Positions 19,796 through 37,802 of a stretch of 37,802 nucleotides of DNA are shown here, piece after piece; the first letter of the stretch is position 1; every line of letters begins with the position of its first letter. Below the pieces are notes generated by a model that was not told where the DNA came from, searched no databases, and worked only from the letters and a program-made list of their open reading frames with translations. This stretch comes from Alkalibacterium putridalgicola (GTDB lineage: Bacteria; Bacillota; Bacilli; Lactobacillales; Carnobacteriaceae_A), in assembly GCF_900109825.1 (NCBI RefSeq), contig NZ_FOBL01000024.1:1-37802 (forward strand). The letters are read 5' to 3'. A program made the translations under genes and the position numbers.

Positions 19796-20164
19796 TTAGA
19801 GTTTAATAGACTATAACCAAAACCACTTTTGGATGTATGATGAGCGTTATGATGATGGAATGTTTTTTTCCAAGTGTCTAGCTCAGTTTCTCCTGGGGAT
19901 GTCCTCAGGAGAAACACCATATATCGTAAAGTGTTTTTTTATTAGCTTGACCTTTCATTACATAGAAGGACCACTCGAACGTATTCATAAAATTTCTGAC
20001 TGTCTGAATCTAAAAGTTTCATAATTGTAAAGGGATACAAGCCGTTTTACTATTGTTATGCCAGGGTGTTTTTGGTAATCTTGTACTGTTGAGTAACTGT
20101 CAAGACACCTTGATGACTACTTAAAAATAAGGCTTGAGACTGAATAAAAAAGTTGAGGTAAATC
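19796..20164 (+). other. Intergenic region between rplQ and ecfA1 with a strong hairpin
   Basis: This 369-bp gap has no credible gene. It holds a 13-bp stem (19886-19898 with 19903-19915, loop ATGT, one G-U pair), followed 18 nt later by T7 (19934-19940), so it is not a standard terminator. A smaller CCAAAA/TTTTGG hairpin lies near 19817. No convincing -35/-10 pair was found for ecfA1, which may rely on read-through. Confidence 0.6.
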
Positions 20165-22751: not shown

Positions 22752-22786
22752 ATAAGGTCTTGATTAGGCGTACTCGCCTAATCATT
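22752..22786. repeat. Left flanking hairpin motif of repeat array B
   Basis: ATAAGGTCT (22752-22760) is followed by a perfect hairpin ATTAGGCG-TACT-CGCCTAAT (22763-22782). The same arrangement, ATAAGGTCT then a GATT-GGC...GCC-AATC hairpin, recurs on the other side of the array at 23314-23344. Confidence 0.75.
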
Positions 22787-23280
22787 CAGCTTGAGTAATG
22801 CCAATGAAGGGCTGATTGGACGTGCTCAGGATATAAACAGTCTGAGCACTGCCAATGAGGCGCGCATTCAGCGTACTCGGGACAGAAAGAGCTTGGGTAA
22901 TGCCATTGAAGGGCGCATTGAACGTACTCAGCACAGAATGAGTGTGGGTAATGCCAATGAAGGGCACATTGGACGTACTCACCACAGAATCAGTTTGAGC
23001 GATGCCAATGAAGGGCGCATTGGACGTACTCAGCACAGAATGGGCGTGAGTAATGCCAATGAAGCGCGCATTCAGCGTACTCGGGACAGAAAGAGCTTGG
23101 ATAATGCCAATGAAGGGCGCATTGAACGTACTCAGAATAGAAAGAGCTTGGGTAATGCCAATGAGGCGCGCATTCGACGTACTCACCACAGGATCAGTTT
23201 GAGCGATGCCAATGAAGCGCTGATTCGACGTACTCACCACAGAATAAGTTTGAGTAATGCCAATGAAGCGCTCTCAAACG
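22787..23280. repeat. 51-bp tandem repeat array B
   Basis: TGCCAATGA (TGCCATTGA in one unit) recurs ten times at exactly 51-bp spacing (22799, 22850, 22901, 22952, 23003, 23054, 23105, 23156, 23207, 23258). Units differ by a limited set of alternatives combined in different ways (CAGCGTACTCGGGAC, GAACGTACTCAGCAC, GGACGTACTCACCAC), a mosaic pattern that suggests exchange between units. Frames are open on both strands, but amino acids are not conserved, and no start site with ribosome binding site exists. Not a CRISPR: there are no unique spacers. Confidence 0.95.
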
Positions 23281-23313
23281 AGCTCAGTTAATATTCAGAT
23301 TAACTAGGATCTA

Positions 23314-24946: not shown

Positions 24947-25161
24947 GAATCAGAATAAAGCGGCGACCGTTGGTTACGTAAACTGGAAATCTAAAAGACG
25001 TATTCAACGGCTAATGATCACTCATGTCGTTGTGTATGTCTTTTCGGTTTGATAAGAGAAACTGGGAAGAGGTTTCGGCTTATGGCATATGCTTTGTAAC
25101 TGGACGTTTTTTGTATTTAAATAAGAATAAGAGAAACACCGAATCAGAAGGAGGGCCCTTT

Positions 25162-25779
25162 TTGGGAGAGAACCTGAATGATAAAATTAAAAAGCGTTAT
25201 GACCGGGTATCACGTGTCTATGACTCGATGGACAAGATGATGAAAGACAGCTGGCGAAAGGATATGCTGCAGGAAGTTGAAGGAAAGGTTCTGGAAGCAG
25301 GGATCGGAACAGGTGCCAATCTGCCGTATTATCCTGCAGGCATTGAACTGACCGGCATCGATTTCAGCCCGAAAATGCTTGAACATGCCAGAAAGAAGCT
25401 CGATACACTGACTTTGCCTTATACAGTGACACTCGAAGAAATGGATATCCAGCAGCTGGACTTTCCGGATGATACGTTTGATTATGTCGTCACCACCTGC
25501 GTTTTCTGTTCGGTCCCGGACCCGGTGAAAGGGTTGAAAGAGCTGGGCAGAGTCTGCAAACCCGATGGGAAGATTTTGATGCTGGAACATATGCGCAGTG
25601 AAAATGAAGCGGTCGGCAAGGCGATGGATCTCTTTAACCCGCTGGCGGTCAATACGTGGGGAGCAAACATCAACAGGAAAACACTGGAAAATATCAATAA
25701 GGCTGGTCTAAAGATCGAACAGAAAGAGAATCTTTTCTCAACCATTGTAAGGAAGATCGTGGTGAAACCAGAGTTGTGA
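25162..25779 (+). CDS. Class I SAM-dependent methyltransferase (UbiE-like)
   Basis: The 205-residue protein has SAM-binding motif I VLEAGIGTG (43-51), the acidic residue in TGIDFSPKML (Asp67), and FPDDTFDYVVTTCVF (101-115), followed by LKELGRVCKPDGKILMLEHM. The frame extends to 25024, but AGGAGGG lies 7 nt before the TTG at 25162, and the upstream 46 residues look non-coding, so TTG is chosen. Relatives methylate quinones or phospholipids; the substrate here is unknown. A terminator follows. Confidence 0.82.
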   Translation: MGENLNDKIKKRYDRVSRVYDSMDKMMKDSWRKDMLQEVEGKVLEAGIGTGANLPYYPAGIELTGIDFSPKMLEHARKKLDTLTLPYTVTLEEMDIQQLDFPDDTFDYVVTTCVFCSVPDPVKGLKELGRVCKPDGKILMLEHMRSENEAVGKAMDLFNPLAVNTWGANINRKTLENINKAGLKIEQKENLFSTIVRKIVVKPEL

Positions 25780-26000: not shown

Positions 26001-26112
26001 CATACGAGTGGAGAAAATAAAGGTATGAATAACAATGTTTCATATCTACACCGGTAAGGATATTAGCATAAAATTAACTTAAATCACTTTTATAGAATGG
26101 GGAGCTTTCTTT

Positions 26113-27381
26113 TTGAACAAAAAATTTGTTGTATCATTAATGACATCGTTAGTGCTGGCAGGACCTTTGTTACGTTTAACAGTAGTGGATGCATCACAAA
26201 ACTCAGAAGATGCCGTGAGTCAGGAAGATAAGTCTTTTGAAAAGGAAAAAGCAGAGCTTGAAGAAACTATTTCAGACGCCCAGGCAACCATCGATGACCT
26301 TGTTATAGATATCAGCAGTCAGGAAGCAGACCTTGAAAAGGGTAGAACAGAAATCGAACAGGCTCAAGAAGAAATCACTCAGCTGAAAGAGCAAATCAAA
26401 CAGCGCAGTGAAGAGTTAGTAAACAAATCACGTTCTGACAAGAAAAAAAACGTGAACCTGTTAAATCCGGTGGGACAAATGGGTGATGTGAACAGTTTGG
26501 CTCCCTCTGCTCAGAATACTTTACTGGCACAAATAAACGATCAGAAGGCACTGGATAGAGCTGAAGAGCAAGTGAAACGCCAGGAAGAAGAGCTGAAGAG
26601 CGCCGAAGCGGAACTGAAAGTCAACCGGGACGACATCGTCAGCCAGCGTACGGAGCTGGAAGACAGGATCGTTAAGGTCGCTGAAAAGTTTGACATGTCG
26701 GATGATGAAAAAGAGTCATTCGTCAACGAACAGACCATCATAGCTGAACGAACAAGCAGCTTGAATGAAGAGCTGAAAAACGAACAGCAGCGTATTCTCG
26801 AAGAAGAACGTGAAAAAGAAGAAGCCGAGCGTTTAGCTGAAGAAAAACGCAAAAAAGAAAAAGAAGCGGAAGAAAAAGCAAAAGCCGAAGCAGAAAAGAA
26901 AGCAGAAAAAGAGAAAGCGGCAAAAGAAAAAGCTAAAGTAGAAGTAAAGGCGGAGGTCTCAACGTCGTCATCTGAAGGAGCGAAAGAGTCAAAAAGCAGT
27001 GGATGGTCACGTCCGGCAAGCGGCAATATGACGTCACCTTTTGGCTATCGTACCCATCCGGTAACGGGTAAACAAGGGTCTTTCCACTCCGGGATCGATA
27101 TTGCAGGCAGCGGTTCTGTTGTTGCTTCACGTGCCGGAACAGTGACCCAAGCATCATACTCTGACACGTATGGTTATACAGTGATCGTTGATCATGGTGA
27201 CGGGTACTCTACCTTATATGCGCACTTGAAAAAAGGTTTAAGTGTGTCGAATGGCCAGAGCGTCTCGCAGGGTCAGCAGGTTGGCATCATGGGAACGACC
27301 GGACGTTCAACAGGCGTTCACCTGCACTTTGAAGTCCGCAAAGGCGGAGAAGCTGTCAACCCGATGAACTATTTAAACTAA
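26113..27381 (+). CDS. Secreted M23 (LytM) endopeptidase with N-terminal coiled coil
   Basis: The 422-residue protein starts from TTG (MNKKFVVSLMTSLVLAGPLL) with a signal peptide ending near VDAS (residue 28). A long coiled coil (about 30-280) becomes a Lys/Glu/Ala-rich stretch, then comes a C-terminal LytM domain. Zinc ligands are intact: FHSGID (His325, Asp329) and VHLHFEV (His405), with catalytic His371 in LYAHL. It should cleave peptidoglycan cross-bridges or stem peptides, possibly controlled by the coiled coil as in PcsB or EnvC. Compared with its neighbour, the PcsB-like segment in mid-coil is replaced by an Asn/Pro/Gly-rich stretch (NLLNPVGQMGDVNSLAPSAQ). Confidence 0.88.
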   Translation: MNKKFVVSLMTSLVLAGPLLRLTVVDASQNSEDAVSQEDKSFEKEKAELEETISDAQATIDDLVIDISSQEADLEKGRTEIEQAQEEITQLKEQIKQRSEELVNKSRSDKKKNVNLLNPVGQMGDVNSLAPSAQNTLLAQINDQKALDRAEEQVKRQEEELKSAEAELKVNRDDIVSQRTELEDRIVKVAEKFDMSDDEKESFVNEQTIIAERTSSLNEELKNEQQRILEEEREKEEAERLAEEKRKKEKEAEEKAKAEAEKKAEKEKAAKEKAKVEVKAEVSTSSSEGAKESKSSGWSRPASGNMTSPFGYRTHPVTGKQGSFHSGIDIAGSGSVVASRAGTVTQASYSDTYGYTVIVDHGDGYSTLYAHLKKGLSVSNGQSVSQGQQVGIMGTTGRSTGVHLHFEVRKGGEAVNPMNYLN

Positions 27382-27423
27382 AGGGACGATAAGCTCTCTC
27401 AGTAAACCAATTGAATAGGACTG

Positions 27424-27462
27424 AAAGAGGAAGAAAACGACCACGTTTTCTTCCTCTTTTTT
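27424..27462 (+). terminator. Intrinsic terminator of the first M23 gene
   Basis: A perfect 16-bp stem (27424-27439 with 27444-27459), loop ACCA, ends in T's to 27462. It lies 43 nt after the stop. Confidence 0.92.
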
Positions 27463-27642
27463 AATCGCTTTAGAAAATGGAAGTATCTGATTGCCGAATA
27501 ACTGAAAAGGTGGTTGAGTCCATATTTATTCCTTAGCTTCAAGTCTTATTGTATAGCGGAAAAATAGTGGCTTTTGATTAGGGGTTCCTGTTCAAGAACC
27601 ATAACAGTCTCTTCTTCAGCATCTGTTTAAAAGTTGTCAGAA

Positions 27643-27675
27643 ATCCATAAAATATCCATAACTAATGGTTATTAT
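27643..27675 (+). promoter_or_regulatory. Promoter with 11-bp-spaced direct repeat (candidate response-regulator site)
   Basis: ATCCATAAAATATCCATAA (27643-27661) contains two TCCAT copies 11 bp apart, followed 27 bp from its first base by TATTAT (27670-27675), a -10-like element. The arrangement is repeated exactly upstream of the gene at 29917. Direct repeats with 11-bp period are typical of OmpR/PhoB-type regulators, and one is encoded at 34162. The second copy lies where a -35 would be. Confidence 0.6.
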
Positions 27676-27715
27676 TAAACTAGCAAGAAGAGATAACTAT
27701 AAGGAGATGGATCAA

Positions 27716-28057
27716 ATGAATATGATTAGTGGAATTCTAGCAGGGGCTTTAGCTTTTTCAGGTGGACTGGGTTTCTCAGATATTGTTAAAGAAGATATGA
27801 CAAACCAAGACATAGTCAGTGTAGAGAACAATGTCAGTTATAACCATATGTCAGATGTGATGGATGCGGAAGATTTTAAAGATATGGAAAGATTAATGGA
27901 AGACGAGATTATCAACTTCGGACAAATGAAGCCGCATTTGAATGAAGTGCATCCTGAGTTAACTAATCAGCAGCTTAGGGAGCATTACAAGGATATGCAT
28001 GGAACAGGCGGATCTTCTCAAAGTAATAATTTCAAAGGTATGGACAGCATGCATTAA
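27716..28057 (+). CDS. Small Met/His-rich protein with N-terminal hydrophobic segment, probably exported
   Basis: The 113-residue product starts MNMISGILAGALAFSGGLGF, a hydrophobic segment that could be a signal or anchor peptide although it lacks early basic residues. AAGGAG 9 nt before the ATG at 27716 decides the start; the frame opens 17 codons earlier without such a site. The mature part is rich in Met, His, Asp and Glu: YNHMSDVMD, QMKPHLNEVHPE, HYKDMHG and a terminal GMDSMH. I do not recognise a family. Met/His clusters suggest binding of a soft metal such as Cu(I), an inference. It shares its promoter arrangement with the gene at 29917. Confidence 0.7.
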   Translation: MNMISGILAGALAFSGGLGFSDIVKEDMTNQDIVSVENNVSYNHMSDVMDAEDFKDMERLMEDEIINFGQMKPHLNEVHPELTNQQLREHYKDMHGTGGSSQSNNFKGMDSMH

Positions 28058-28070
28058 AGGTTAAATTATA

Positions 28071-28104
28071 AAAGAAGCCACAAGCAATACTTAGTGGCTT
28101 CTTT
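28071..28104 (+). terminator. Intrinsic terminator of the Met/His-rich gene
   Basis: AAAGAAGCCAC (28071-28081) pairs with GTGGCTTCTTT (28094-28104), an 11-bp stem whose 3' arm ends in T's. It lies 13 nt after the stop. Confidence 0.88.
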
Positions 28105-28210
28105 ATATTTGGTTATAGCAGATAACTAATCACGTGCTACTTTTGCATGTACACCACACATGTCTTGGATTATGATGATAATAAAGTTATTTTGTAATAT
28201 AAGTTAAATA

Positions 28211-28255
28211 TGTCATACAAATAAAACATAACTTTGGCAGTGTTTATGCTATACT
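28211..28255 (+). promoter_or_regulatory. Promoter and candidate WalR-type site of the second M23 gene
   Basis: The extended -10 TGCTATACT (28247-28255) sits in the same TGTTTATGCTATACT as in the first M23 promoter. TGTCAT-ACAAA-TAAAAC begins 39 bp upstream of the -10 (28211), at the same place as TGTTAC in the paralogue. TGTAAT also occurs at 28193. This suggests shared control by a WalR-like regulator. Confidence 0.5.
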
Positions 28256-28357
28256 ATTTTTTGACAAAGAAAAAAGTAGAAATCACTTAGCCGTAAAGAA
28301 AATATAAAAATGTACTATCAACCTAAACAGATATCAAAGGACAAGGAGCTACATATC

Positions 28358-29733
28358 GTGAAAAAAAATACATTTTAACATTTATAGCATCAGTAATTCT
28401 CGCAGGACCTTTAATGCAGCCGATAGAGGTTGAAGCCTCTCAAAAATTAGAAGAACTGGAAATTCAGCAGCAGGAACTGGAAAGTGAATCACAAAAAATA
28501 GGTACTGAGGTCCAGAGCCGTGAAGAAAAAATGGCATCACTTGAAAAAGAAAAAGCTCAACTGGAAAAAGAAGTGACCGCCCTTCAAGCAGATATCGATA
28601 CTCTAGTTCTGGAAATCAATGAACAGGAAAATGAAATCCAGCGCATCAAAGAAGAAATCGAACGTCTGCAGAAAGAAATCGTTCAACTGCAACAGCAGAT
28701 CGATAACCGTAATGAACAACTGGAATCACAAGCACGTTCTGTACAGACAAACGCCAGCGCTTCAGACATCGTTGACTTGTTGATGTCAGCGGAAAGCTTA
28801 TCTGATTTAGTTGGACGCATCAACGTCGTCAATAAACTGGTTACTGCAAATCAGGATATTATGGGAGAACAGATCGCTGACCAGAATGCTTTAGAAGAAA
28901 ACGAAAAACAAGTTAAAGCTGAACAGGAAGAGATGGAAAAAGTTAAAGCTCAACTGGAAGTCAGCCGAAATAATTTAGTCAACCAGCGTGTTGAGTTAGA
29001 TGATAAAATCGTTCAGATCGCAGAAAAATATGAGATGAATGCTGAAGAAAGAGAATCATTCATCAATGAACAGGCGATCCTTGCAGAACGTACCAGCACA
29101 TTAAATGAAGAAATGAAAGCTGAGAAACAGCGCATCATTGAAGAAGAACGTGCTAGACAAGAAGCGATCCGTATCGCTCAGGAAAAAGCACAGAGAGAAG
29201 CAGAAGCAAAGGCTAAAGCAGAAGCGGCAGCAAGAGCTAAGGCAGAGGCAAAAACAGCTGCCGCCGCCAAAGCCAACGATAAACCACAAGCTGCAACGTC
29301 TTCAAATAATGCAAGTTCGACTGAGGCTTCATCGAATGTGGCTCCAACAAGTAATGGATGGACAAGACCCGCTAGAGGGAGAATATCGTCCCCCTATGGC
29401 TGGCGAACTCATCCGATTTTTGGCGATCGCCGATTCCATACAGGTGTTGATATCGCAGGAAGTGGCCCGATCATAGCTGCCCGTGCCGGTACTGTAACTA
29501 CAGCCGGGTATAATGGCGCCCTAGGCTATTACGTCAAGGTAGACCACGGTGATGGCTATACATCAGTGTATTCGCATATGCAGCCTAATCTAAGTGTTGC
29601 GCGTGGTCAACGAGTGTCACAAGGTCAACAGCTCGGCATCATGGGGACTACTGGAGATTCTACGGGTGTGCACCTGGATTTCAAAGTGTATAGGAATGGA
29701 GAAACCGTTGATCCGATGAACTATATCAATTAG
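28358..29733 (+). pseudogene. Second M23-like coiled-coil protein, start frameshifted in an A8 tract and zinc ligand replaced
   Basis: The only start with a ribosome binding site is GTG at 28358 (AAGGAG 9 nt upstream), but in this frame the product stops after six codons. The signal peptide KKYILTFIASVILAGPLMQP and the remaining 440 or so codons are in another frame. One extra A in the A8 run (28361-28368) would restore GTG-(AAA)3-TAC and a normal protein. The body has a long PcsB-like coiled coil (including DLLMSAESLSDLVGRINVVN), an Ala/Lys-rich linker and a LytM domain. FHTGVD is intact, but the last motif reads VHLDFKV instead of HLHF, so the third zinc ligand is Asp. The internal ATG at 28414 lacks both ribosome binding site and signal peptide. 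Alternatives are a sequencing error, phase variation or transcriptional slippage. Confidence 0.8.
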
Positions 29734-29770
29734 TAATTTCAAAATTTAGTACGTGTCAGTGTAAAATTAT

Positions 29771-29807
29771 GACGTCAGTGGATGAACAGTCGCTGACGTC
29801 TTTTTTT
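29771..29807 (+). terminator. Intrinsic terminator of the second M23 gene
   Basis: GACGTCAG (29771-29778) pairs with CTGACGTC (29793-29800), followed by T7 (29801-29807). Confidence 0.9.
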
Positions 29808-29853
29808 GAACAATTAACCAGTGAATAAACAAAAAAATAATATAAACTGCAAT

Positions 29854-29895
29854 CTCCATTTTTTCTCCATAATTCTTTTTTATACTAAAGGTATA
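29854..29895 (+). promoter_or_regulatory. Promoter with 11-bp-spaced direct repeat and -10 palindrome
   Basis: CTCCATTTTTTCTCCATAA (29854-29872) has two TCCAT copies 11 bp apart, and the -10 TATACT (29881-29886) begins 27 bp from its first base, exactly as at 27643. The -10 is also half of TATAC-TAAAG-GTATA (29881-29895). The consensus of the two sites is MTCCATNNNNTMTCCATAAY. Confidence 0.62.
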
Positions 29896-29916
29896 GAATA
29901 AGAAGAGGTGGAGAAA

Positions 29917-30444
29917 ATGAAAAAAGGAAAAAAATATATCGCAAGTTTACTGGTTATTGGAGGAGTATCTAGTGTTAGTCTATATAACAGTGAACTGAGC
30001 AATGTTGCAGCCCATGGGAATCAGGAACAGTCGCCAGATCCATATTGGGACGATCGTGATGAGACAATATGGGATCATATGGAAGGCATGCATGGAAATT
30101 CTTTCCGAAACAGAGAGAACAGCATTCCAGATGATAATGGCAGTGAAAACAACACTAATAAAAGTTACGATAAAGAAACCGATAGCTGGAATAACTGGCA
30201 CAATAGAATGTGGGGATTTAGCGATGAAAATCGGTCGGAGAATCCCGAGTCATTTTTTGGTGATATGGGAAATCACATGAGAGGTTTTAGTGACGTTTCC
30301 TTTAATGGTATGTTCGATTGGATGGAAGAGATGCATAATTCATTTAACTTCAATAGAGGAATCATGGACTGGGATGAGCGGGAGTTAAATAACAATGAAG
30401 ACAGAGAATTTATGAAGAGATTTAATTTCTTCAATTCAAAATAG
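29917..30444 (+). CDS. Secreted Met/His/Trp-rich protein of unknown family
   Basis: The 175-residue product starts MKKGKKYIASLLVIGGVSSV, a classical signal peptide with cleavage plausible near AAHG (31-34). The ATG at 29917 is preferred over the GTG three codons earlier because AGAGGTGGAG lies just upstream. The mature part has imperfect repeats: WDHMEGMHGNSF (52-63) and FDWMEEMHNSF (133-143); WGFSDE and RGFSDV; and MGNHMRG (117-123), close to MGQHMRG in the sensor domain of the kinase at 34841. No Cys is present. I do not recognise the family. Extracellular metal binding is inferred from composition, context and the shared promoter site. Confidence 0.72.
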   Translation: MKKGKKYIASLLVIGGVSSVSLYNSELSNVAAHGNQEQSPDPYWDDRDETIWDHMEGMHGNSFRNRENSIPDDNGSENNTNKSYDKETDSWNNWHNRMWGFSDENRSENPESFFGDMGNHMRGFSDVSFNGMFDWMEEMHNSFNFNRGIMDWDERELNNNEDREFMKRFNFFNSK

Positions 30445-30464
30445 TTAGATTAAGTTAAAATGCG

Positions 30465-30510
30465 AATACAACAAGGATCGATGACTCATCCTGTTGTATT
30501 CATTTCTTTT
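30465..30510 (+). terminator. Terminator between the Met/His-rich gene and lgt paralogue
   Basis: AATACAAC-A-AGGA (30465-30477) pairs with TCCT-GTTGTATT (30489-30500), one bulged A, followed by a U-rich tail. The lgt start is only 24 nt beyond the tail, so partial read-through may drive lgt. Confidence 0.75.
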
Positions 30511-30533
30511 AAATAGAATAGGAGAATGTTTAT

Positions 30534-31379
30534 ATGATAGAATTGTTCAGTATCGGACATTTTAGTATTTCTTTATTGGGCGTGACCAGTGCCCTGGGTA
30601 TGATTATTGGATTATTGCTTATTCAAAAAGAAGGTGAACGTAAACGGCTGGATAAAGATATGCTGATGGATCTGGGGCTGTATACTGCTTTACTTGGGAT
30701 TATAGGTGCCAGATTAGGATACATACTGTTCTTTAACCTAGACCATTATCTGGCAAATCCCTTGGACATCTTTAAGATCTCTCAAGGTGGTTTATCGATT
30801 CAAGGAGCCATTCTGGTTGCCGGATCGTTTGCATTCTGGTTTATGAAAAAGAAGAAAATGGCTGTCTGGAAAACAGCAGATGCAATCGTTCCAGGGGTTA
30901 TATTAGGTCAGGCGATAGGCCGTGTCGGCTGTGACGTTTTCGGTGTGCCGATGAGCAGAAACTGGCCATGGGGAGTCATGGTAGGTGGCGAACTGCTGCA
31001 CCCGGCCCAGCTCTATGAAGTAGCGTTAAACTTTATATTGTTTCTGATTATATGGAGAAGAAGACAGACGGCCAAATTTGACGGCGAATTGTTCTTCATA
31101 TATGTCATCGGTTTTGCTTTCAACAGGTTTATTGTAGAGTTCTTCAGATCTAACCCTCAGGCAATCGGCAGTTTAAGTATTGCACATGTCTTGAGTTTGC
31201 TGATTATTGTTTTAGGCTTGCTGTTATTAATGTTCATGCGAAACAAGCATAATGATCAAATTGAATATACCAGCGAAGCGGGTACATTGAAAAATGCAAT
31301 GGTCTATGGAATTATAGCGTTAGGCTTTATTGGATCAGTAGTATTCTATTACGGGATCCATTTTATATACAGTCGATAA
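30534..31379 (+). CDS. Prolipoprotein diacylglyceryl transferase paralogue (Lgt-like)
   Basis: The 281-residue multi-helix membrane protein has the Lgt landmarks GARLGYILFFNLDHY (58-72), GGLSIQGA (85-92), GRVGCDVFG (129-137), HPAQLYEVALNF (156-167) and NRFIVEFFRSNPQ (197-209). Lgt adds diacylglycerol to the lipobox Cys of prolipoproteins. Two positions differ from housekeeping enzymes: the His of the GG-x-x-x-HG motif (His103 in E. coli) is Gln90, and GRxGNFxN reads GRVGCDVF. The Arg of that motif is kept (Arg130). An additional C-terminal hydrophobic segment follows. It probably is an accessory paralogue, since the usual lgt neighbours (hprK and others) are absent. It is first of a three-gene set with the small Met/His protein and Lit. 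Confidence 0.85.
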   Translation: MIELFSIGHFSISLLGVTSALGMIIGLLLIQKEGERKRLDKDMLMDLGLYTALLGIIGARLGYILFFNLDHYLANPLDIFKISQGGLSIQGAILVAGSFAFWFMKKKKMAVWKTADAIVPGVILGQAIGRVGCDVFGVPMSRNWPWGVMVGGELLHPAQLYEVALNFILFLIIWRRRQTAKFDGELFFIYVIGFAFNRFIVEFFRSNPQAIGSLSIAHVLSLLIIVLGLLLLMFMRNKHNDQIEYTSEAGTLKNAMVYGIIALGFIGSVVFYYGIHFIYSR

Positions 31380-31395
31380 CAAAGGAGAAAAATAC

Positions 31396-31605
31396 ATGGA
31401 AACAATACTATTTATCGTTGTTATGATTATTGGCCACGTGCTTATGATGTATTTGATGCCTGGTATGCACGGGGGCCATTCTCACAAAAAAGTTAGTGAT
31501 GCTGATAATGCCTTATTAGAAAAAGAGATACTGGAAGAAAAAAATAGAAAGTTAAAAGAAGAATTACATGAGCTGAGATCTAGAGTTGGACATAAGGAAA
31601 GGTGA
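31396..31605 (+). CDS. Small one-helix membrane protein with a Met/His-rich motif and coiled coil
   Basis: The 69-residue protein has one N-terminal hydrophobic helix (about 4-22), directly followed by MMYLMPGMHGGHSHKK (18-33), then a Glu/Lys-rich coiled coil to the end. The cluster of three His and several Met after the helix is a plausible metal site. AAAGGAGAAA precedes the ATG 17 nt after lgt. The stop overlaps the region where lit begins. I do not recognise a named family; similar short proteins occur in copper-related loci, from memory and not verified here. Confidence 0.7.
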   Translation: METILFIVVMIIGHVLMMYLMPGMHGGHSHKKVSDADNALLEKEILEEKNRKLKEELHELRSRVGHKER

Positions 31606-31613
31606 GAAGCATC

Positions 31614-32321
31614 GTGTTGAGGCAAAGAATTATAAAATCATTAGGATATATCGTGATTTCGCTATTCATTATGTCCGTATCAATAGCTTTTACAATTAAT
31701 TTTACTCCTTTATATATAGTTGATATTGATTATTTGAACATCACAGATTATGTAAATGTATCTAAAGAACAAATTATATTAAATTATCGAATCTTAATGG
31801 ATTACTTGAATATGCCTTGGATAACAGATTTGGCAATGCCTGATTTTCCAAGTTCCGAAAGGGGACTGTTTCATTTCTATGAAGTGAAAAGATTATTCAT
31901 GTTTAATTACCTTATTCTTGCTGCTGCGGGATCAGGGACGTATTTTTTTATGAGGTATATAAAAAGTAGAAATTTATACAAAAGTTTGCTTATATATTTT
32001 AAAAATGGGATTTTTCTATCTTTGACAGTTATAGTAGGTATTCTGATTAGCTTTGATAGCTTATTTCTATTATTTCATCAGTCATTTTTCAACAATGATG
32101 CGTGGTTGTTCAATCCTGCTACAGATCCCATAATTCTGATTTTACCGGCTGAGTTCTTTATGCACAATTTTTTGTTAGCTTTTGGATTAGTTGAAATCTT
32201 ACTGATAACTGGCTACGTTTTGACAAAGAGAAAAACAAGAGACATAAGTCTATTGTCGAAAAAGAAAGAGGTAGGAAAACAGGTAGGCTTTGAGAAGGAG
32301 ATTTCTACTAAAATAAATTGA
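31614..32321 (+). CDS. lit: Lit-like lipoprotein intramolecular transacylase (DUF1461/TIGR01906)
   Basis: The 235-residue integral membrane protein has hydrophobic helices at about 10-37, 96-114, 131-153 and 184-203. It carries the family motif FHQSFFNNDAW (154-164), followed by NPATDPIILILPAEFF (167-182), which identifies DUF1461/TIGR01906. Lit moves the sn-2 acyl chain of diacylglyceryl lipoproteins to the N-terminal Cys, giving lyso-form lipoproteins. The GTG at 31614 (AAAGG 11 nt upstream) is preferred; GTG at 31602, overlapping the previous stop, is possible. A Lit paralogue (Lit2) was described in transmissible copper-resistance operons of Listeria and Enterococcus, which fits the Met/His-rich neighbours. 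Confidence 0.82.
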   Translation: MLRQRIIKSLGYIVISLFIMSVSIAFTINFTPLYIVDIDYLNITDYVNVSKEQIILNYRILMDYLNMPWITDLAMPDFPSSERGLFHFYEVKRLFMFNYLILAAAGSGTYFFMRYIKSRNLYKSLLIYFKNGIFLSLTVIVGILISFDSLFLLFHQSFFNNDAWLFNPATDPIILILPAEFFMHNFLLAFGLVEILLITGYVLTKRKTRDISLLSKKKEVGKQVGFEKEISTKIN

Positions 32322-32394
32322 GTAGGAGATAATTGTAAATAACATAATGTTCAAGATAAGATTATAATAACAATAAAATAATGGAGGAATTAAA

Positions 32395-33395
32395 ATGTCT
32401 ACAAAAATCGCAGTCAATGGATTTGGACGAGTTGGGAGAACAGTACTGAGAAGATTGTTAGATACAGATTCAGATTTGGAAGTTGTGGCTGTTAATGATT
32501 TAAGTGATATTGAAAACTTAGATTAACTGATGGAATTTGACACAACATACGGACGTTTAAAGCATGATGTCCAGGTTCGGGAGAATACTTTGGTTATAAA
32601 ATGGGCATGAAATCAACTACTATCAGGAATCAGAAGAAGGGAATTTACTGTAGGAAGATTTAGGGGTCGACATAGTAATAGAAGCGACGGGAGTGAATGC
32701 AACGGCTGAAAATTCGCAGGAACACATCAAAGCTGGTGCGAAAAAAGTTATACTTACGACTCCGGCTGATAAGGAAACGAAAATCATTGTCTTAGGAGTC
32801 ATTGAGGATGTCATTACACAAGACGACAAACTCCTTTCTTCCGGTTCGTGTACATCAAATGATTTGGCGCCTGTTACAAAAGTTCTGAATGATAAACTTG
32901 GAATCGAAACTGTTTATATGAAGGCGGTTAAGGCATACACGCCTTCGCAGTCATTACACGATAGCCCCGGCTCTAAGGATATGCGCCGGGGTAGAGTAGG
33001 AGCCATAAATGCTATTCCTACTTCTACCGGGCGCCCAAGGCGGTCGGGAAGGTCATTCCTTCTATAGAAAACAGTATCGATGGATCAGCAACTCGAGTGC
33101 CATTTCCTGATGCTGCAATAGTGGAGTTTTATACTACTCTTAAAAAGAAAGTGATGATTGAAGAAGTGAATAAAGCAATGAACGAAGCCGCCAATTCTTC
33201 ATTCGAATATTCTGAAAACCGATTGTATCTTCGGACGTTATTGGTACTTCTGCAGGAGGAATATTTGACGCCACGTTAACGGATATTATAAAAAATAAAG
33301 ATACTCAACTTATTAAAACAGTTTCATGGTATGACATTAAGTATGGTTTTGTTTCCAATCTTGTTCGTTTGATAGAATATGTAGCTGAATTATAG
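32395..33395 (+). pseudogene. Decayed type I glyceraldehyde-3-phosphate dehydrogenase
   Basis: The N terminus is clear ([23 protein letters not shown]-binding), but a TAA interrupts at 32524-32526. The frame then changes at least three times. The catalytic segment SGSCTSNDLAPVTKVLNDKL and VKAYTPSQSLHDSPG lie in a second frame up to about 33040. FPDAAIVEFYTTLKKKVMIE is back in the first frame, and DVIGTSAGGIFDATLTD to SWYDIKYGFVSNLVRLIEYV in another, ending TAG at 33393-33395. The order and spacing of GAPDH motifs are intact, so decay is recent. It was probably a second gap; the housekeeping gene is expected elsewhere. Confidence 0.92.
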
Positions 33396-33406
33396 AGAAG
33401 CAGACG

Positions 33407-33440
33407 AAAAAAGAGTTGATGAAAAATATCGGCTCTTTTT
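33407..33440 (+). terminator. Intrinsic terminator after the gap pseudogene
   Basis: AAAAAAGAGTTGAT (33407-33420) pairs with ATCGGCTCTTTTT (33428-33440), including two G-U pairs, loop GAAAAAT, and the 3' arm forms the T-run. Confidence 0.8.
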
Positions 33441-33504
33441 AAATCTATTATCATAAAATCCAAAGAGATTTCGGTATTACGGTAAAAAATTAAACTACTG
33501 GTGG

Positions 33505-33533
33505 TTCTATTGCAGGAATATTCAATGTATAAT
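33505..33533 (+). promoter_or_regulatory. Putative promoter of the second adenylate kinase gene
   Basis: A perfect TATAAT (33528-33533) lies 17 bp after TTCTAT (33505-33510), a weak -35, about 22 bp before the start codon region. Suggestive only. Confidence 0.45.
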
Positions 33534-33555
33534 AAGTTTACAAAAGGAGTTCGAT

Positions 33556-34092
33556 ATGATTATTATTTTAGTTGGCGCCCCGGGATCGGGTAAAGGGACA
33601 GTGGCAGAACGCATTCAAAACAAGTATGAATTTCCCATTGTATCCTCGGGGGAAATATTGCGTAACGAAATGAAACAGGAGACGGCAATTGGAAAACAAG
33701 TCTTAAGTTATGTATCTTCAGGGAAATTAGTGCCGGATAGAATAATCACCGCACTTATTAAACAAAAAATAAGCAAACATCAGCATAAATGCTCGGTTGT
33801 CTTAGATGGTTATCCTCGCAATTTAAACCAGTCATTAGCTTTGGAGGATATAACCCAGACAAAACAGAGAGTATTCTATCTGGATGTTCCAAAGGATATC
33901 TTAAAAGAGCGGCTTATAAATCGTGGAAGAACAGACGACACCGAAAAGGTAATCGAACAGCGTTTTGAAGTTTTCTTAAACGAGACCCGACCGATTTTAG
34001 ATTACTACAAAAGAAGAGACACATTAGTTAGAATAAGTGGAACATCGTCAGATGAAATCTTTCGAAAAATCGATGCACTTTTATCGAAGTAG
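33556..34092 (+). CDS. Short adenylate kinase-like nucleotide kinase (lid-less paralogue)
   Basis: The 178-residue protein has P-loop GAPGSGKGT (7-15), the NMP-binding SSGEILRNEM and VVLDGYPRNLNQ, all Adk-like. Where the housekeeping enzyme at 16329 has its zinc lid, this one has only NRGRTDDTEKV, as in short adenylate or UMP/CMP kinases. So it is a distinct paralogue, and substrate choice (AMP or another NMP) is open. AAAGGAG precedes the ATG. It lies between the gap pseudogene and the two-component genes; its lack of Cys-zinc could matter if metals are limiting or toxic, a speculation. Confidence 0.85.
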   Translation: MIIILVGAPGSGKGTVAERIQNKYEFPIVSSGEILRNEMKQETAIGKQVLSYVSSGKLVPDRIITALIKQKISKHQHKCSVVLDGYPRNLNQSLALEDITQTKQRVFYLDVPKDILKERLINRGRTDDTEKVIEQRFEVFLNETRPILDYYKRRDTLVRISGTSSDEIFRKIDALLSK

Positions 34093-34161
34093 AGCAGTGC
34101 AGTATAATGTATTGCGGATACATTTCTTTCTGATGAATAGTGGATAAAGGAGACCAGGTGA

Positions 34162-34860
34162 ATGAACATATTAGTTGTTGATGACGAGCAGTCGATTCTG
34201 GAAATCGTCCAGGCTTATTTAAATGCTGACGGCCATGATGTTTATATAGCATCTACTGGTGAAAAAGCATTTGAAACATTTTATAATCACAGCATTGACT
34301 TTATCATCTTAGATATTATGCTGCCGGATTATACTGGCTGGGAGATTTGCGAGAAAATTAGAGAATCGTCGGATGTACCTATTATCTTGCTGACCGCTAA
34401 ATCGAATGAATCAGACGTTATCAAGGGACTGAAACTTGGGGCAGATGATTACGTCACGAAGCCTTTTAGTCCTAAAGAACTGCTTGCCAGAATCGTAACA
34501 GTAATGAGAAGGATGAAAACAGTCAATAATGAGGATAAACTGACTTTTAATAAAGGTGATCTGGTCATCTTCCCTAATACAATGGAAGTAGTTGCGCATG
34601 GAGACAATGTGTTATTAACTCACACAGAATTTGAACTTCTGGAGATCATGGCAAGAGAACCGCGTCACGTCTTTTCTCGTGATCAATTGCTTGAAAAGGT
34701 AAAAGGACTGGAAGCCACGGCAATGGACAGAGTGATCGACTCCCATATAAAAAATTTGAGAGCAAAAATCGAGAGAGACCCTAAAATACCGATGTATATT
34801 GAAACTGTACACGGCAGCGGTTACCGTTTTGGAGTGAATTATGAAGAGAACCTTATTTAG
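34162..34860 (+). CDS. OmpR/PhoB-family response regulator
   Basis: The 232-residue regulator has a receiver domain with Asp7-Asp8, phospho-acceptor Asp51 (IILDIMLPD), Thr78 and Lys100, followed by a winged-helix domain with TEFELLEIMAREPRHVFSRD and HIKNLRAKIERDP...VHGSGYRFG. It overlaps the kinase gene by 20 bp. A candidate target is the 11-bp-spaced direct repeat upstream of 27716 and 29917. TATAAT at 34103 could be its -10, with no good -35. Confidence 0.93.
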   Translation: MNILVVDDEQSILEIVQAYLNADGHDVYIASTGEKAFETFYNHSIDFIILDIMLPDYTGWEICEKIRESSDVPIILLTAKSNESDVIKGLKLGADDYVTKPFSPKELLARIVTVMRRMKTVNNEDKLTFNKGDLVIFPNTMEVVAHGDNVLLTHTEFELLEIMAREPRHVFSRDQLLEKVKGLEATAMDRVIDSHIKNLRAKIERDPKIPMYIETVHGSGYRFGVNYEENLI

Positions 34861-36217
34861 TCATTTATTCATTTATATTCTAAGTGGAAGTATACTCATG
34901 ATTTCTTTATTCAGTTTTTTGACCTTTCAACTTACTGAAAACAGATTTGATGATTACTTGAGTGACCGTTTTATAAATGAAAGAGAAACAGTCATCGAAA
35001 CCATCGAAACAGCATATGACGGTGAAAGTCAGTGGGACCGGGAAATACTTTCTGGCGCTATTCAGAATGCCATGCATTCGCATATGTTTGTGCGGATCGT
35101 GGATGCAGACGGTAATGAAATAATCAGTCAGTCCTCACCGATGGGACAGCATATGCGGGGCATGCAAATGATTGAAGTGCTGCCTGGGGAAGACTGGTTT
35201 GAAGAAGAAGTAGACTTGTTTTCAGGTGAGAATAATATCGGGACAGCATTTATCACTTACCCGGGTTTTCAGGACTATACTTCTGAAGAAGAAGAGTTCA
35301 TTGAAGATCTGATCCTTTTGATTGCATTGATGGGTCTGCTAACTTTTGTTATTGCCGGGGTTATGGCCTACCTCATATCCAGACGTTTGAGCAGGCCAAT
35401 TGCAGCGACCAGCGAACGGACACAGCAAATCGCTCAAGGACGGGATATTGGAGAAGCTGAAACCAAAGATGAAAAAATCAGCGAGCTCTTCCAGCTGCAG
35501 CAGAGCGTCAATGTTCTAGCCGCTCGGTTAGCCGAGCAGAAAAGAATTCGGAATCAGATGGTTTCGGATCTGGCTCATGAGGTGAGGACGCCTTTGACTA
35601 CGCTGCAGGGGAATGTTGAGGCCATGCTGGACGGTGTCTGGGAGGTCACGCCTGAACGGCTAAATAGCCTGAATCGTCAGGTCATACGTCTCGCTCATTT
35701 AGTCCAGCTGATTGATCAGCTGGACGATACAGAAAACACAAATAAGCAATTGAATCTCGAAACGTTTGATATCAAAGAACTGCTATCTAATATCTCCATC
35801 TCATTTGAACCGCAGGTTAATGAAAAGCAGGTGACTCTAAATCTAAAAGCACAGTCGGAAATGATTGAAGCGGATAGAAATAAGCTGGAACAGGTGATAA
35901 CAAATCTATTAGCCAATGCAGTTAAATTCACACCCGAAGATGGGGAAATCAGTTTAATATCCAAACGCATCAAGAATGAAATTATAATAATGATTCAGGA
36001 TAACGGGAAGGGGATACCAGAAGATAAGTTAGACTACATTTTTGAGCGCTTTTATCAAGTAGAACCTTCACGGAACAGTAAACTGCAGGGTCAAGGAATC
36101 GGTCTGGCAGTTGTAAAAAGCATTATAGATGCACATCAAGGGGATATTAGAGTTGAGAGTGATGAAGGAAGAGGAACTACCTTTACGGTCGTCCTTCCCG
36201 AAAGTCAGAAAATATAA
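34841..36217 (+). CDS. Sensor histidine kinase with Met/His-rich extracellular domain
   Basis: The 458-residue kinase has TM1 (about 5-30), an extracellular domain (31-154), TM2 (155-180), a HAMP domain (about 178-232), the H-box SDLAHEVRTPLTTL (His246), N-box NLLANAVKF, and G-boxes DNGKGIPED and GQGIGLAVVKS. The sensor part contains AMHSHMF (77-83) and MGQHMRGMQM (101-110), clusters of Met and His resembling those used for Cu(I)/Ag(I) binding in CusS-type sensors. Metal sensing is an inference. It is cotranscribed with the regulator. Confidence 0.92.
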   Translation: MKRTLFSHLFIYILSGSILMISLFSFLTFQLTENRFDDYLSDRFINERETVIETIETAYDGESQWDREILSGAIQNAMHSHMFVRIVDADGNEIISQSSPMGQHMRGMQMIEVLPGEDWFEEEVDLFSGENNIGTAFITYPGFQDYTSEEEEFIEDLILLIALMGLLTFVIAGVMAYLISRRLSRPIAATSERTQQIAQGRDIGEAETKDEKISELFQLQQSVNVLAARLAEQKRIRNQMVSDLAHEVRTPLTTLQGNVEAMLDGVWEVTPERLNSLNRQVIRLAHLVQLIDQLDDTENTNKQLNLETFDIKELLSNISISFEPQVNEKQVTLNLKAQSEMIEADRNKLEQVITNLLANAVKFTPEDGEISLISKRIKNEIIIMIQDNGKGIPEDKLDYIFERFYQVEPSRNSKLQGQGIGLAVVKSIIDAHQGDIRVESDEGRGTTFTVVLPESQKI

Positions 36218-36249
36218 AAAGATTGAACTGATATAGAAAAAGGAAGTAG

Positions 36250-36563
36250 TTTAAAAAACAAACAGTTCTAGGACAAAGTATACTGTTTATACTGATGGGA
36301 TGTACAGGTAATACGAATCTAACGGGTTCAAAAGTTAAGATAGATATATTAGAAAAAGACGGTAATGAAGTTATTCTGGATGTGGAACAGGACAAGGCAT
36401 GCCGGAAGCGGTTGTAGTAATAGAAGAAGTTTATACTATAACGGTTGACGCCGTCGACTGTACATCAAATACTGATGTTGGAAGAGTAACTAATCTTATG
36501 CTGGTCATAGAAGTCGAACTAAAAACACCTAAGGATCGAGATCTAACGATCATCGTACAATAG
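36250..36563 (+). pseudogene. Broken lipoprotein gene
   Basis: From TTT at 36250, where a start codon would be expected (AAGGAAG just upstream), the frame reads KKQTVLGQSILFILMGC, a standard lipoprotein signal peptide with lipobox LMGC (Cys18, 36301-36303), then TGNTNLTGSKVKIDILEKDG to a stop after DKACRKRL. In another frame the sequence continues as GMPEAVVVIEEVYTITVDAV, with GRVTNLMLVIEVELKTPK and ending TAG at 36561-36563. So the start is lost and a frameshift splits the body. The family is not recognised. It lies next to the sensor kinase in the same region as Lgt and Lit paralogues, which act on lipoproteins. Confidence 0.72.
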
Positions 36564-37139: not shown

Positions 37140-37802
37140 CTAGCGACATTCCACCTGTACCTTTGGATTCCATGGCAAATAAGCCTCCAAGGGTGTATTT
37201 TGTCGATTTGGAAGGTAAGTTAAGAGGTAGTCCAGATATTTTCGTGGATGTAATCCGTTGGATTTGGCCGTCTCGACGAGGCTCAAAATAGTCGCAACGG
37301 CATGAGCACCCTCAAAAGATTTTGAAAACAGCAAGTTCTTTCTGCCCATAACGAGTGACTTGATGCCACGTTCGGCTAGATTGTTGGATAGCACGAGACG
37401 GCCGTCCTTCAGAACGTTCATCATTCGCTCTTTCTGATTCAGCGCTTAGTTGATCGCTGTGCCAAGTTTGCCATGCGCAGTTAGGGATTCACACCAGTCA
37501 AAAAACGCCTCAAGCTTCGGCTTCACTAGTTCTAAGCGCTGATCATACCGTTCGCTAACAGATAAGTCCTTGAGGGACTTATCCAACACAAATAACTCGT
37601 TACACAGCGTGACTCCCTTATGAGCGACACTCTTACTGGAATAGTTCTTTGGACGGGCGTCATAGAACTTCCGTCTGATATGCGCCAGACAGGCAATCAT
37701 CGTCATCCCTGGAAGATTGTTGTACCCGGAGAACCCATCACTATGTAGATAGCCAGTGTACTCCTCTAAGAAATCTCTAGGGACAGAGCCGCTGCGTGAT
37801 GG
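37140..37802 (-). pseudogene. IS66-family transposase (TnpC) C-terminal part, with internal stop
   Basis: Read from the window edge, the protein contains YLHSDGFSGYNNL (catalytic Asp), IACLAHIRRKFYDARPKN, a helical region, then SNNLAERGIKSLVMGRKNLL (catalytic Glu) and the typical end YLLTYLPNR...EAYLPWNPK. A single in-frame TAA at 37446-37448 splits it between GKLGTAIN and ALNQKERMMN; both halves are in the same frame. The 5' part, including the first catalytic Asp, is beyond the window. It is probably an inactive copy unless the stop is a sequencing error. Confidence 0.9.

Follow-up and report, generated by a model that had tools for sequence, protein, structure and literature searches.

Copper resistance is generally presented as a matter of efflux, chelation and oxidation. 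The closest described relatives of the locus treated here, a block of genes in a contig of Alkalibacterium putridalgicola, are the lit2/lgt2 elements of Listeria and Enterococcus (Armbruster et al. 2019, via excerpts of PMC8275575 and PMC8689077). These are mobile and combine Lit, a lipoprotein intramolecular transacylase, and an Lgt-family gene with copper ATPases, a chaperone and a multicopper oxidase. In the same excerpts copper-induced lit2 is co-transcribed with lgt2, the free N-terminal amine of lipoproteins can bind copper, and loss of this amine is the proposed rationale for Lit. A second relative is the tcrYAZB island of Enterococcus, according to excerpts of PMC4511184 a CopY-type operon with an adenylate kinase, Lgt, an oxidase and a two-component system; the adenylate kinase of the E. 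faecalis copper island is named there in a figure legend and left undiscussed in the passages at hand. Excerpts on copper poisoning state that GapA, the glyceraldehyde-3-phosphate dehydrogenase (GAPDH) of S. aureus, binds intracellular Cu(I), which inhibits it (PMC6350627), and that GapA of S. pyogenes is a copper target, the catalytic Cys and His being proposed as ligands by analogy with silver on E. coli GapA (PMC7733945).

The stretch of DNA that was analysed, hereafter the window, is the contig NZ_FOBL01000024.1 (37,802 nucleotides), designated C57 among the 72 contigs of a 2.60 Mb genome. Its block runs on the plus strand from a methyltransferase gene at 25024 to a lipoprotein remnant at about 36560. 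We are highly confident that the locus is a partly decayed member of the lit2-type copper islands, with a two-component system and Met/His envelope proteins of its own. It adjoins ribosomal-protein operons, and we lean towards regarding it as one block of a horizontally moving copper-tolerance island. The Lit/Lgt copper pairing is the known part and the GAPDH and adenylate kinase isozymes of copper islands are the new part. We somewhat favour the view that CopY-controlled islands and plasmids of Lactobacillales carry copper-proof replacement enzymes. The putative kit, held with the same modest preference, comprises GAPDHs with Arg or Lys at the catalytic-His site (in the Arg type a neighbouring Cys is also changed to Ala or Gly), adenylate kinases without the zinc-thiolate LID and, in some islands, a metal-free class I aldolase. 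No copper-tolerant GAPDH or adenylate kinase in copper islands was found described in titles and abstract openings of the open-licence literature.

A second GAPDH in copper islands

On a Jeotgalibaca plasmid an intact gap is flanked by a heavy-metal ATPase on one side and a CopZ-like gene on the other, and the plasmid also encodes an adenylate kinase 58% identical to that of the window. Searched with this GAPDH (E<=1e-120), 395 Lactobacillales genomes gave 11 genes in 10 genomes at at least 75% identity, the query itself and one gene with an internal stop included, while the remaining GAPDH genes among the matches listed reached at most 69%. Nine of these 11 second GAPDHs had CopY and CopA in the same stretch. 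The Jeotgalibaca gene has two heavy-metal ATPases and CopZ nearby, and the Arg-type gene of Marinilactibacillus piezotolerans abuts a partial heavy-metal ATPase at a contig end.

Residue identities were taken from the 30 hits with loci from this search and from the eleventh high-identity gene. The catalytic-His site held Arg in all 10 second GAPDHs and His in all 20 others; four residues after the catalytic Cys the former had Ala or Gly (10/10) and the latter Cys (20/20). Arg was also found at the site in the eleventh second GAPDH and in plasmid fragments from E. lactis and Tetragenococcus. On the Tetragenococcus plasmid the GAPDH fragment is adjoined by alternating copies of heavy-metal-associated and iron-sulfur repair (ric) proteins (L145:8219-9087). 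A Lys-type lineage, in which the second Cys is kept, was encountered by reading neighbourhoods rather than by exhaustive search, and is intact in the own genome (contig C69), in Alkalibacterium subtropicum (G099) and in a relative (G061). At these two positions both the pseudogene of the window and a broken copy in M. piezotolerans have Lys and Asp. Altogether, Arg or Lys stood in place of the catalytic His in all 18 island genes readable at this position, a count that includes near-copies and both of the identical C69 and G099 proteins, and leaves out the A. subtropicum pseudogene copy and the fragments L206 and L213, which do not span the site. The His was kept in all 29 distinct non-island rows of the tree, including 6/6 plasmid-borne gap genes outside such islands. 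When 23 ordinary, 10 Arg-type and 2 Lys-type proteins were compared column by column, only two positions conserved in the ordinary enzymes were changed in every island GAPDH, namely 181 (the catalytic His in Jeotgalibaca numbering) and 240. Arg and Lys would be poor Cu(I) ligands and could keep a positive charge beside the catalytic thiolate.

Adenylate kinases and aldolases of the islands

In the 12 genomes searched, the four LID cysteines were present in 12/12 housekeeping adenylate kinases, and the zinc Cys4 was absent from 12/12 readable island adenylate kinases (13 copies, near-copies included). The island enzymes are of three designs: one Cys-less with the LID (206 residues), one that lacks the LID, as in the window (176-178 residues), and a third seen in G065. 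The window enzyme, in which LID and Cys4 are absent, scored 151 bits on PF00406 and 173 on TIGR01351 (cut-off 168). The Cys-less type was found in 15 of 395 genomes (E<=1e-60; one copy with two internal stops and one partial match), the LID-less type in 6 of 355 (E<=1e-45).

CopY, CopA, CopZ or CopB occurred in 12 of the 16 stretches around island adk genes and a partial heavy-metal ATPase at a contig end in one; the remaining three continue from stretches with CopY and CopA. The window-type adk is the exception, with no cop gene on the window contig and, in A. subtropicum, CopY about 17 kb away. In 21 control stretches around housekeeping gap or adk no CopY, CopZ or CopB was seen at 45 bits or above, and there was one distant P-type ATPase. 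In the plasmid collection 116 records matched a tcrB plus adk query, 60 of them holding at least 80% of it, and adenylate kinase islands were also found on Enterococcus plasmids from animals and people.

In the own genome the main cop operon includes a class I fructose-bisphosphate aldolase flanked by gap and copY (L214:7472-8407). Full-length class I aldolases accompany cop genes at six loci (L079, L081, L144, L206, L214 and L029) and fragments do so at L014 and L145; L016 was left out of this count, no aldolase having been found there. The aldolase was rejected as strong support for the enzyme kit on three grounds: class I matches are widespread (78 of 395 genomes), a second class I gene is present in 4/5 genomes with the island-type aldolase, and a class II gene in 5/5.

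CopY operator sites

The CopY operator consensus is TACANNTGTA. Exact copies of it were located 41-119 bp before gap in six of the eight loci in which gap heads the cop genes, the other two having one-mismatch boxes only, and paired boxes 31 bp apart were present in 6/8 of these loci when one-mismatch boxes are counted. A further six island GAPDHs (L076, L077, L078, L013 and two in L031) showed no box at a distance of up to 150 bp from gap. In L076-L078 copY is preceded at 28-63 bp by exact boxes, and copA, copB and gap follow downstream of these. Among 23 distinct control loci there was no exact box, and a one-mismatch box in two (33 loci were listed, 10 of them being the same gene twice; the second G281 gene was left out of the box test). 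Control of the isozymes by CopY is likely in the wider island family, as far as operator-like sites can tell.

CopY control of the window block was considered and rejected: 23 sites with at most one mismatch occur in the whole window against 14.9 expected, and the only exact one is at 763. Since the block has no exact box, its own two-component system appears the likelier regulator.

Selection and phylogeny

The ratio of nonsynonymous to synonymous rates (omega, dN/dS) was 0.08-0.16 for diverged Arg-type pairs, 0.17 for the Lys pair and 0.18-0.26 for LID-less adenylate kinases, and the island isozymes therefore encode constrained proteins. Near-identical pairs with omega 0.38-0.86 have synonymous divergence (dS) below 0.07 and say little; the value for A. 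subtropicum adk against the window gene was discarded because an internal stop upset the codon alignment. The Arg and Lys GAPDH clades each received 100/100 support in the tree, and a His-bearing sequence (L056, G196) was placed next to the Arg clade (93/81), a position that would suit two independent changes of the His.

The block in the window and its relatives

The block and the transposase remnants that follow it consist of the following features.

25024-25779, plus strand: class I S-adenosylmethionine (SAM) methyltransferase (PF08241, E 6.6e-22), found in 6/8 related loci and, on the Jeotgalibaca plasmid, next to the adenylate kinase.
26113-27381, plus strand: M23 peptidase with coiled coil (PF01551), the A. 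subtropicum copy 88% identical; membership of the block uncertain.
27665-28057, plus strand: small Met/His-rich exported protein of 130 residues, of a family common to contig C45 and most related loci.
28414-29733, plus strand: PcsB-like coiled coil with M23 peptidase (PF24568, PF01551).
29908-30444, plus strand: Met/His-containing exported protein of 178 residues, with relatives in 6/8 loci.
30534-31379, plus strand: Lgt-family protein of a divergent metal-associated clade (PF01790, TIGR00544), with altered RxGN segment.
31396-31605, plus strand: one-helix Met/His protein with MPGMHGGHSH, between Lgt and Lit.
31602-32321, plus strand: Lit (PF07314; aligned with the B. cereus Lit structure).
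32395-33392, plus strand: type I GAPDH pseudogene with Lys at the catalytic-His site, in four tblastn pieces in different frames, with stops in two.
33556-34092, plus strand: adenylate kinase paralogue of 178 residues without LID and zinc cysteines, frame open (PF00406).
34162-34860, plus strand: OmpR-type response regulator (profile search).
34841-36217, plus strand: sensor histidine kinase whose extracellular part bears Met/His motifs (profile search and alignment).
36393-36536, plus strand: YdhK/DUF1541 lipoprotein remnant, 48% identity over 48 residues, within a broken gene at about 36.27-36.56 kb.
37140-37802, minus strand: transposase remnants, IS66-like by eye, open reading frames at the contig end.

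An earlier note had read this DNA as a metal-responsive lipoprotein-remodelling island. All genes that it named were recovered from the list of open reading frames and by profile searches, all on the plus strand, and the lipoprotein gene that it had called broken is the YdhK/DUF1541 remnant. The GAPDH pseudogene, the LID-less adenylate kinase, the SAM methyltransferase and the M23 peptidases at 26113 and 28414 come in addition to its parts. In front of the PcsB-like M23 gene a likely signal peptide lies in another frame, across a run of A (28320-28420), which is a matter of either decay or sequencing.

The window-type Lgt was found in 8 of the 395 Lactobacillales genomes, the own one included (E<=1e-70), and the window protein is 98% identical to that of A. 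subtropicum DSM 23664 and 92% to that of M. piezotolerans DSM 16108. A scan of named genomes gave nine loci, eight in Alkalibacterium and Marinilactibacillus (two from A. subtropicum) and one in a distant Firmicutes bin (44%), whose stretch held only Lgt and a weak CopY-like match. The co-occurrence expected by the earlier note was borne out, as the Met/His genes, the kinase and Lit recur with the window-type Lgt in the eight related loci: Met/His proteins in 8/8, a YdhK gene or remnant in 8/8, kinase and regulator in 7/8, Lit in 6/8, the methyltransferase in 6/8, the one-helix protein in 5/8, the LID-less adenylate kinase in 2/8, and CopY with CopA within the block in 2/8 (L039 and L043). L044 holds only a 62-residue piece of the kinase, no Lit was seen in L042 and L044, and L038, L039 and L042 end at contig ends.

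The absence of CopA, CopY and a multicopper oxidase remarked in the earlier note is true of this contig, but the operon lies on C69 of the same assembly, in the order multicopper oxidase, MT, YdhK, gap, class I aldolase, CopY, CopA, CopZ, CopB, adk, lgt, the last being split between contigs C69 and C20. Contig C45 contains another copy of the block, a decayed one, and has a CopZ-like protein, a YdhK lipoprotein and a Met/His protein next to it. A single contig of A. subtropicum carries the window-type block, a multicopper oxidase and an operon gap-aldolase-CopY-CopA-CopZ-CopB-adk-lgt, the positions being 308 kb for Lgt, about 304 kb for the kinase, about 295 kb for the oxidase, about 289 kb for CopY and 272 kb for another window-type Lgt; the oxidase is about 7 kb and CopY-A-Z-B about 14 kb beyond the kinase. 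CopY scored above its equivalog cut-off and CopB above that for copper P-type ATPases. Small Cys-containing proteins without a Pfam match recur beside CopA/CopZ (L013:4129-4398, L012:3680-3943 and L015:19020-19283), with 36-81% identity between islands, and may bind copper.

The DNA is 94% identical to that of M. piezotolerans over 27.7-37.4 kb. Values of dS between the two were 0-0.007 for kinase, regulator and adenylate kinase, 0.06 for Lit and 0.22 for Lgt, and identity between the housekeeping adenylate kinases of the pair is 75%. From these figures we infer that the block was exchanged recently between genera. The plasmid collection contained no near DNA copy of the block.

Lipoprotein enzymes

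The window Lit scored well above the cut-offs of PF07314 (166 bits, cut-off 24, E 9.9e-49) and TIGR01906 (158 bits, cut-off 74.8) and below that of the NCBIfam Lit equivalog (101 of 400). In the alignment with the structure of B. cereus Lit (7b0o) it keeps the His85/His153 dyad together with Val89, Phe149, Phe157 and Trp162; the residue list comes from excerpts of PMC8275575, and the numbers were placed on the structure by spacing. Lit-based lipoprotein remodelling by the locus is probable.

The window Lgt passed PF01790 (201 bits, cut-off 24.9, E 1.9e-59) and TIGR00544 (146 bits, cut-off 118.9). The residues of the RxGNFxNxE segment are important in E. coli Lgt. In the window protein this active-site segment is replaced by RVGC-DVFG with a four-residue deletion. 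The protein groups with plasmid proteins of Metabacillus, Cytobacillus and Fusobacteria, which have R[VI]GC-DV[FY]G with the same deletion, and heavy-metal ATPases are present on 2/3 of those plasmid stretches. The designation Lgt paralogue in the earlier note agrees with the profiles and with the further copies in the genome, but transferase activity is not assured because the clade is divergent and the active-site segment altered; the protein may not be a canonical transferase, though the Lgt profiles were passed. This clade, with an invariant Cys, was observed near metal genes in Bacilli and Fusobacteria (L019:6944-7780, L017:10001-10828, L018:10001-10828 and window 30534-31379).

Neither enzyme is the sole copy in its genome. 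Other Lgt matches lie on C29 (31%), on C45 (70%) and as two pieces on C20 and C69, and Lit has a second copy on C40 (46%) and a decayed one on C45; the C29 Lgt and the C40 Lit are presumed to be the housekeeping copies. The plasmids examined from E. hirae, E. faecalis and Carnobacterium have Lit and Lgt together with copper genes. On the Jeotgalibaca stretch lgt is in two pieces and no Lit was seen. Lgt was also considered as a copper-proof isozyme and rejected: 13 presumed housekeeping and 14 presumed ordinary island Lgts, labelled by hand from position, displayed no consistent loss of His, Cys or Met, and five window-type Lgts differ at both conserved His/Met columns but are divergent throughout.

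Met/His proteins and the two-component system

When Met+His content was tested against 11 other proteins of the window, enrichment was clear for the protein at 27665 (p=3.5e-5) and the one-helix protein (p=3e-4), and weak for that at 29908 (p=0.009). The one-helix protein resembles a small Carnobacterium protein in the same Lgt-Lit position. As for the Met/His sensor kinase proposed in the earlier note, its motifs are present and mostly kept in relatives (AMHSH in 6/7 aligned kinases and QHM in 5/7, with QHV in L038 and neither in L039), but the enrichment of its sensor region was not significant (p=0.11). The kinase scored 181 bits on the cztS_silS_copS model (cut-off 292.6), and its structure model was of low confidence (predicted local distance difference test, pLDDT, 63) and not used for fold search.

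Other observations in the window

Ribosomal-protein genes, ECF transporter genes and truA lie upstream of the block; these open reading frames were named by us. An L17 downstream element RNA follows the L17 gene at 19841-19911 (RF01708, 49.7 bits). Between an ECF transporter gene and truA, at 22782-23291, open frames on both strands consist of short units (ANEARIxRTxxRxSL and its reverse) and resemble a tandem repeat. At the contig start an open frame (3-356) is made of repeated NWSLNRYCDHFLEK-like units. A scan for promoters and terminators gave consensus matches only, little above shuffled sequences, and the families of direct repeats shown near island genes were mostly coding repeats.

Discussion

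We propose that the island works as two modules. In the envelope module the kinase/regulator pair would, probably, sense Cu(I) or Ag(I) outside the cell and induce the Met/His exported proteins, the one-helix protein, the YdhK lipoprotein, decayed in the window, and Lit. Lit would move an acyl chain onto the lipoprotein N-terminus and thereby remove the free amine thought to bind copper. The enzyme-replacement module would supply a GAPDH and an adenylate kinase that lack the presumed copper ligands: the catalytic His of GAPDH is changed to Lys or Arg, and the zinc Cys4, or the whole LID, of adenylate kinase is missing. Because intact modules sit in cop operons that are probably CopY-controlled, copper would induce these substitutes for the poisoned housekeeping enzymes, and if they tolerate the metal, glycolysis and nucleotide balance would be kept running to the benefit of the cell. 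In the window the enzyme module is half decayed, with the adenylate kinase open and the GAPDH dead; an intact Lys-type GAPDH is in the cop operon on C69.

A possible, though rather unlikely, alternative is that the locus is an ordinary lit2/lgt2 copper island of the published kind, whose GAPDH, adenylate kinase and aldolase are mere passengers that contribute nothing to copper tolerance. The occurrence of lit2 with lgt2 in copper elements is published, in the excerpts cited above, and the block GAPDH is decayed in the window, in A. subtropicum and in M. piezotolerans, while the LID-less adk of A. subtropicum contains a stop. Passengers would, however, leave unexplained why all island GAPDHs read have the same residue change, why Cys-less adenylate kinases come in three designs, why operator boxes stand before gap and why the genes are under purifying selection. 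It is improbable that the island GAPDH has another function, as an arsenate-linked enzyme, a dehydrogenase of altered specificity or a metal-responsive moonlighting protein. Such a function would suit the lost catalytic His and the arsenic genes near some islands (L016), but the Arg and Lys proteins passed the GAPDH-I equivalog TIGR01534 (387 and 397, cut-off 367) and failed the ArsJ-associated model (265 and 298, cut-off 450), the catalytic SCTTN is kept in 35/35 aligned GAPDHs, including the 10 Arg-type and 2 Lys-type proteins, and the operators belong to the copper-repressor type. A module for envelope stress or the cell wall, made up of M23 peptidases, lipoprotein enzymes and a two-component system with incidental Met/His motifs, is very improbable. 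It would suit the M23 peptidases and the methyltransferase, which are without obvious metal role, and the Met+His content of the kinase, which is not significantly raised; against it stand CopY/CopA inside homologous blocks, the A. subtropicum contig that also carries a multicopper oxidase and CopY-A-Z-B, and related gene sets in copper plasmids.

Several points weigh against the replacement of copper-poisoned enzymes. The contig of the window has no cop gene and its block no exact CopY box, the window GAPDH is dead, one Arg-type gap (G279) has an internal stop, and the thirteenth island adenylate kinase, the LID-less one of A. subtropicum (G099), is cut by an internal stop. Counts of island genes include near-copies and do not represent independent events; a single origin of the Arg and Lys forms was not rejected (approximately unbiased test, p=0.194), so that the two may share one origin. 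The lost His is catalytic, and the island isozyme may be weak or otherwise employed. In S. aureus over-expression of ordinary GapA gave no higher copper tolerance, according to excerpts of PMC6350627. That adenylate kinase is a copper target is our inference, the class I aldolase is tied to the islands weakly, Lgt falls outside the pattern, and the sensor region of the kinase does not have significantly more Met and His than other window proteins.

The copper reading of the earlier note was largely correct. Its suggestion of a different kind of copper locus does not hold as to Lit and Lgt, because copper-induced lit2 with lgt2 was already published, as far as the excerpts go. If replacement of copper-sensitive enzymes is true, resistant versions of poisoned targets would add another branch to metal resistance, similar to the target replacement known for antibiotics, and the residues replaced by the islands would mark, as an evolutionary experiment, cytosolic sites that copper attacks. 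Since Enterococcus plasmids carry such islands, their function bears on the use of copper in feed and on surfaces. The arrangement would resemble Zur-controlled zinc-independent paralogues, reserve isozymes that lack the sensitive metal site and step in under stress; in the present case GAPDH and adenylate kinase would be the targets, an excess of copper the stress, and CopY or a two-component system the control. Biochemistry, in the excerpts at hand, proposed the catalytic Cys/His pair of GAPDH as copper site, and the islands point to the same His. The work on GapA poisoning in S. aureus and S. pyogenes (excerpts of PMC6350627 and PMC7733945), which places GAPDH among cytosolic copper targets, concerns the sensitive housekeeping enzyme, and the excerpts report no resistant island isozyme.

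In comparison with the tcrYAZB island (PMC4511184, in part), the window block is without CopY genes. From the lit2/lgt2 elements it differs in the divergent Lgt clade, its own two-component system, the Met/His proteins, the LID-less adenylate kinase, the GAPDH relict and its chromosomal position. It shares with them the combination of Lit and an Lgt-family gene (31602-32321 and 30534-31379), the mobility and the copper context.

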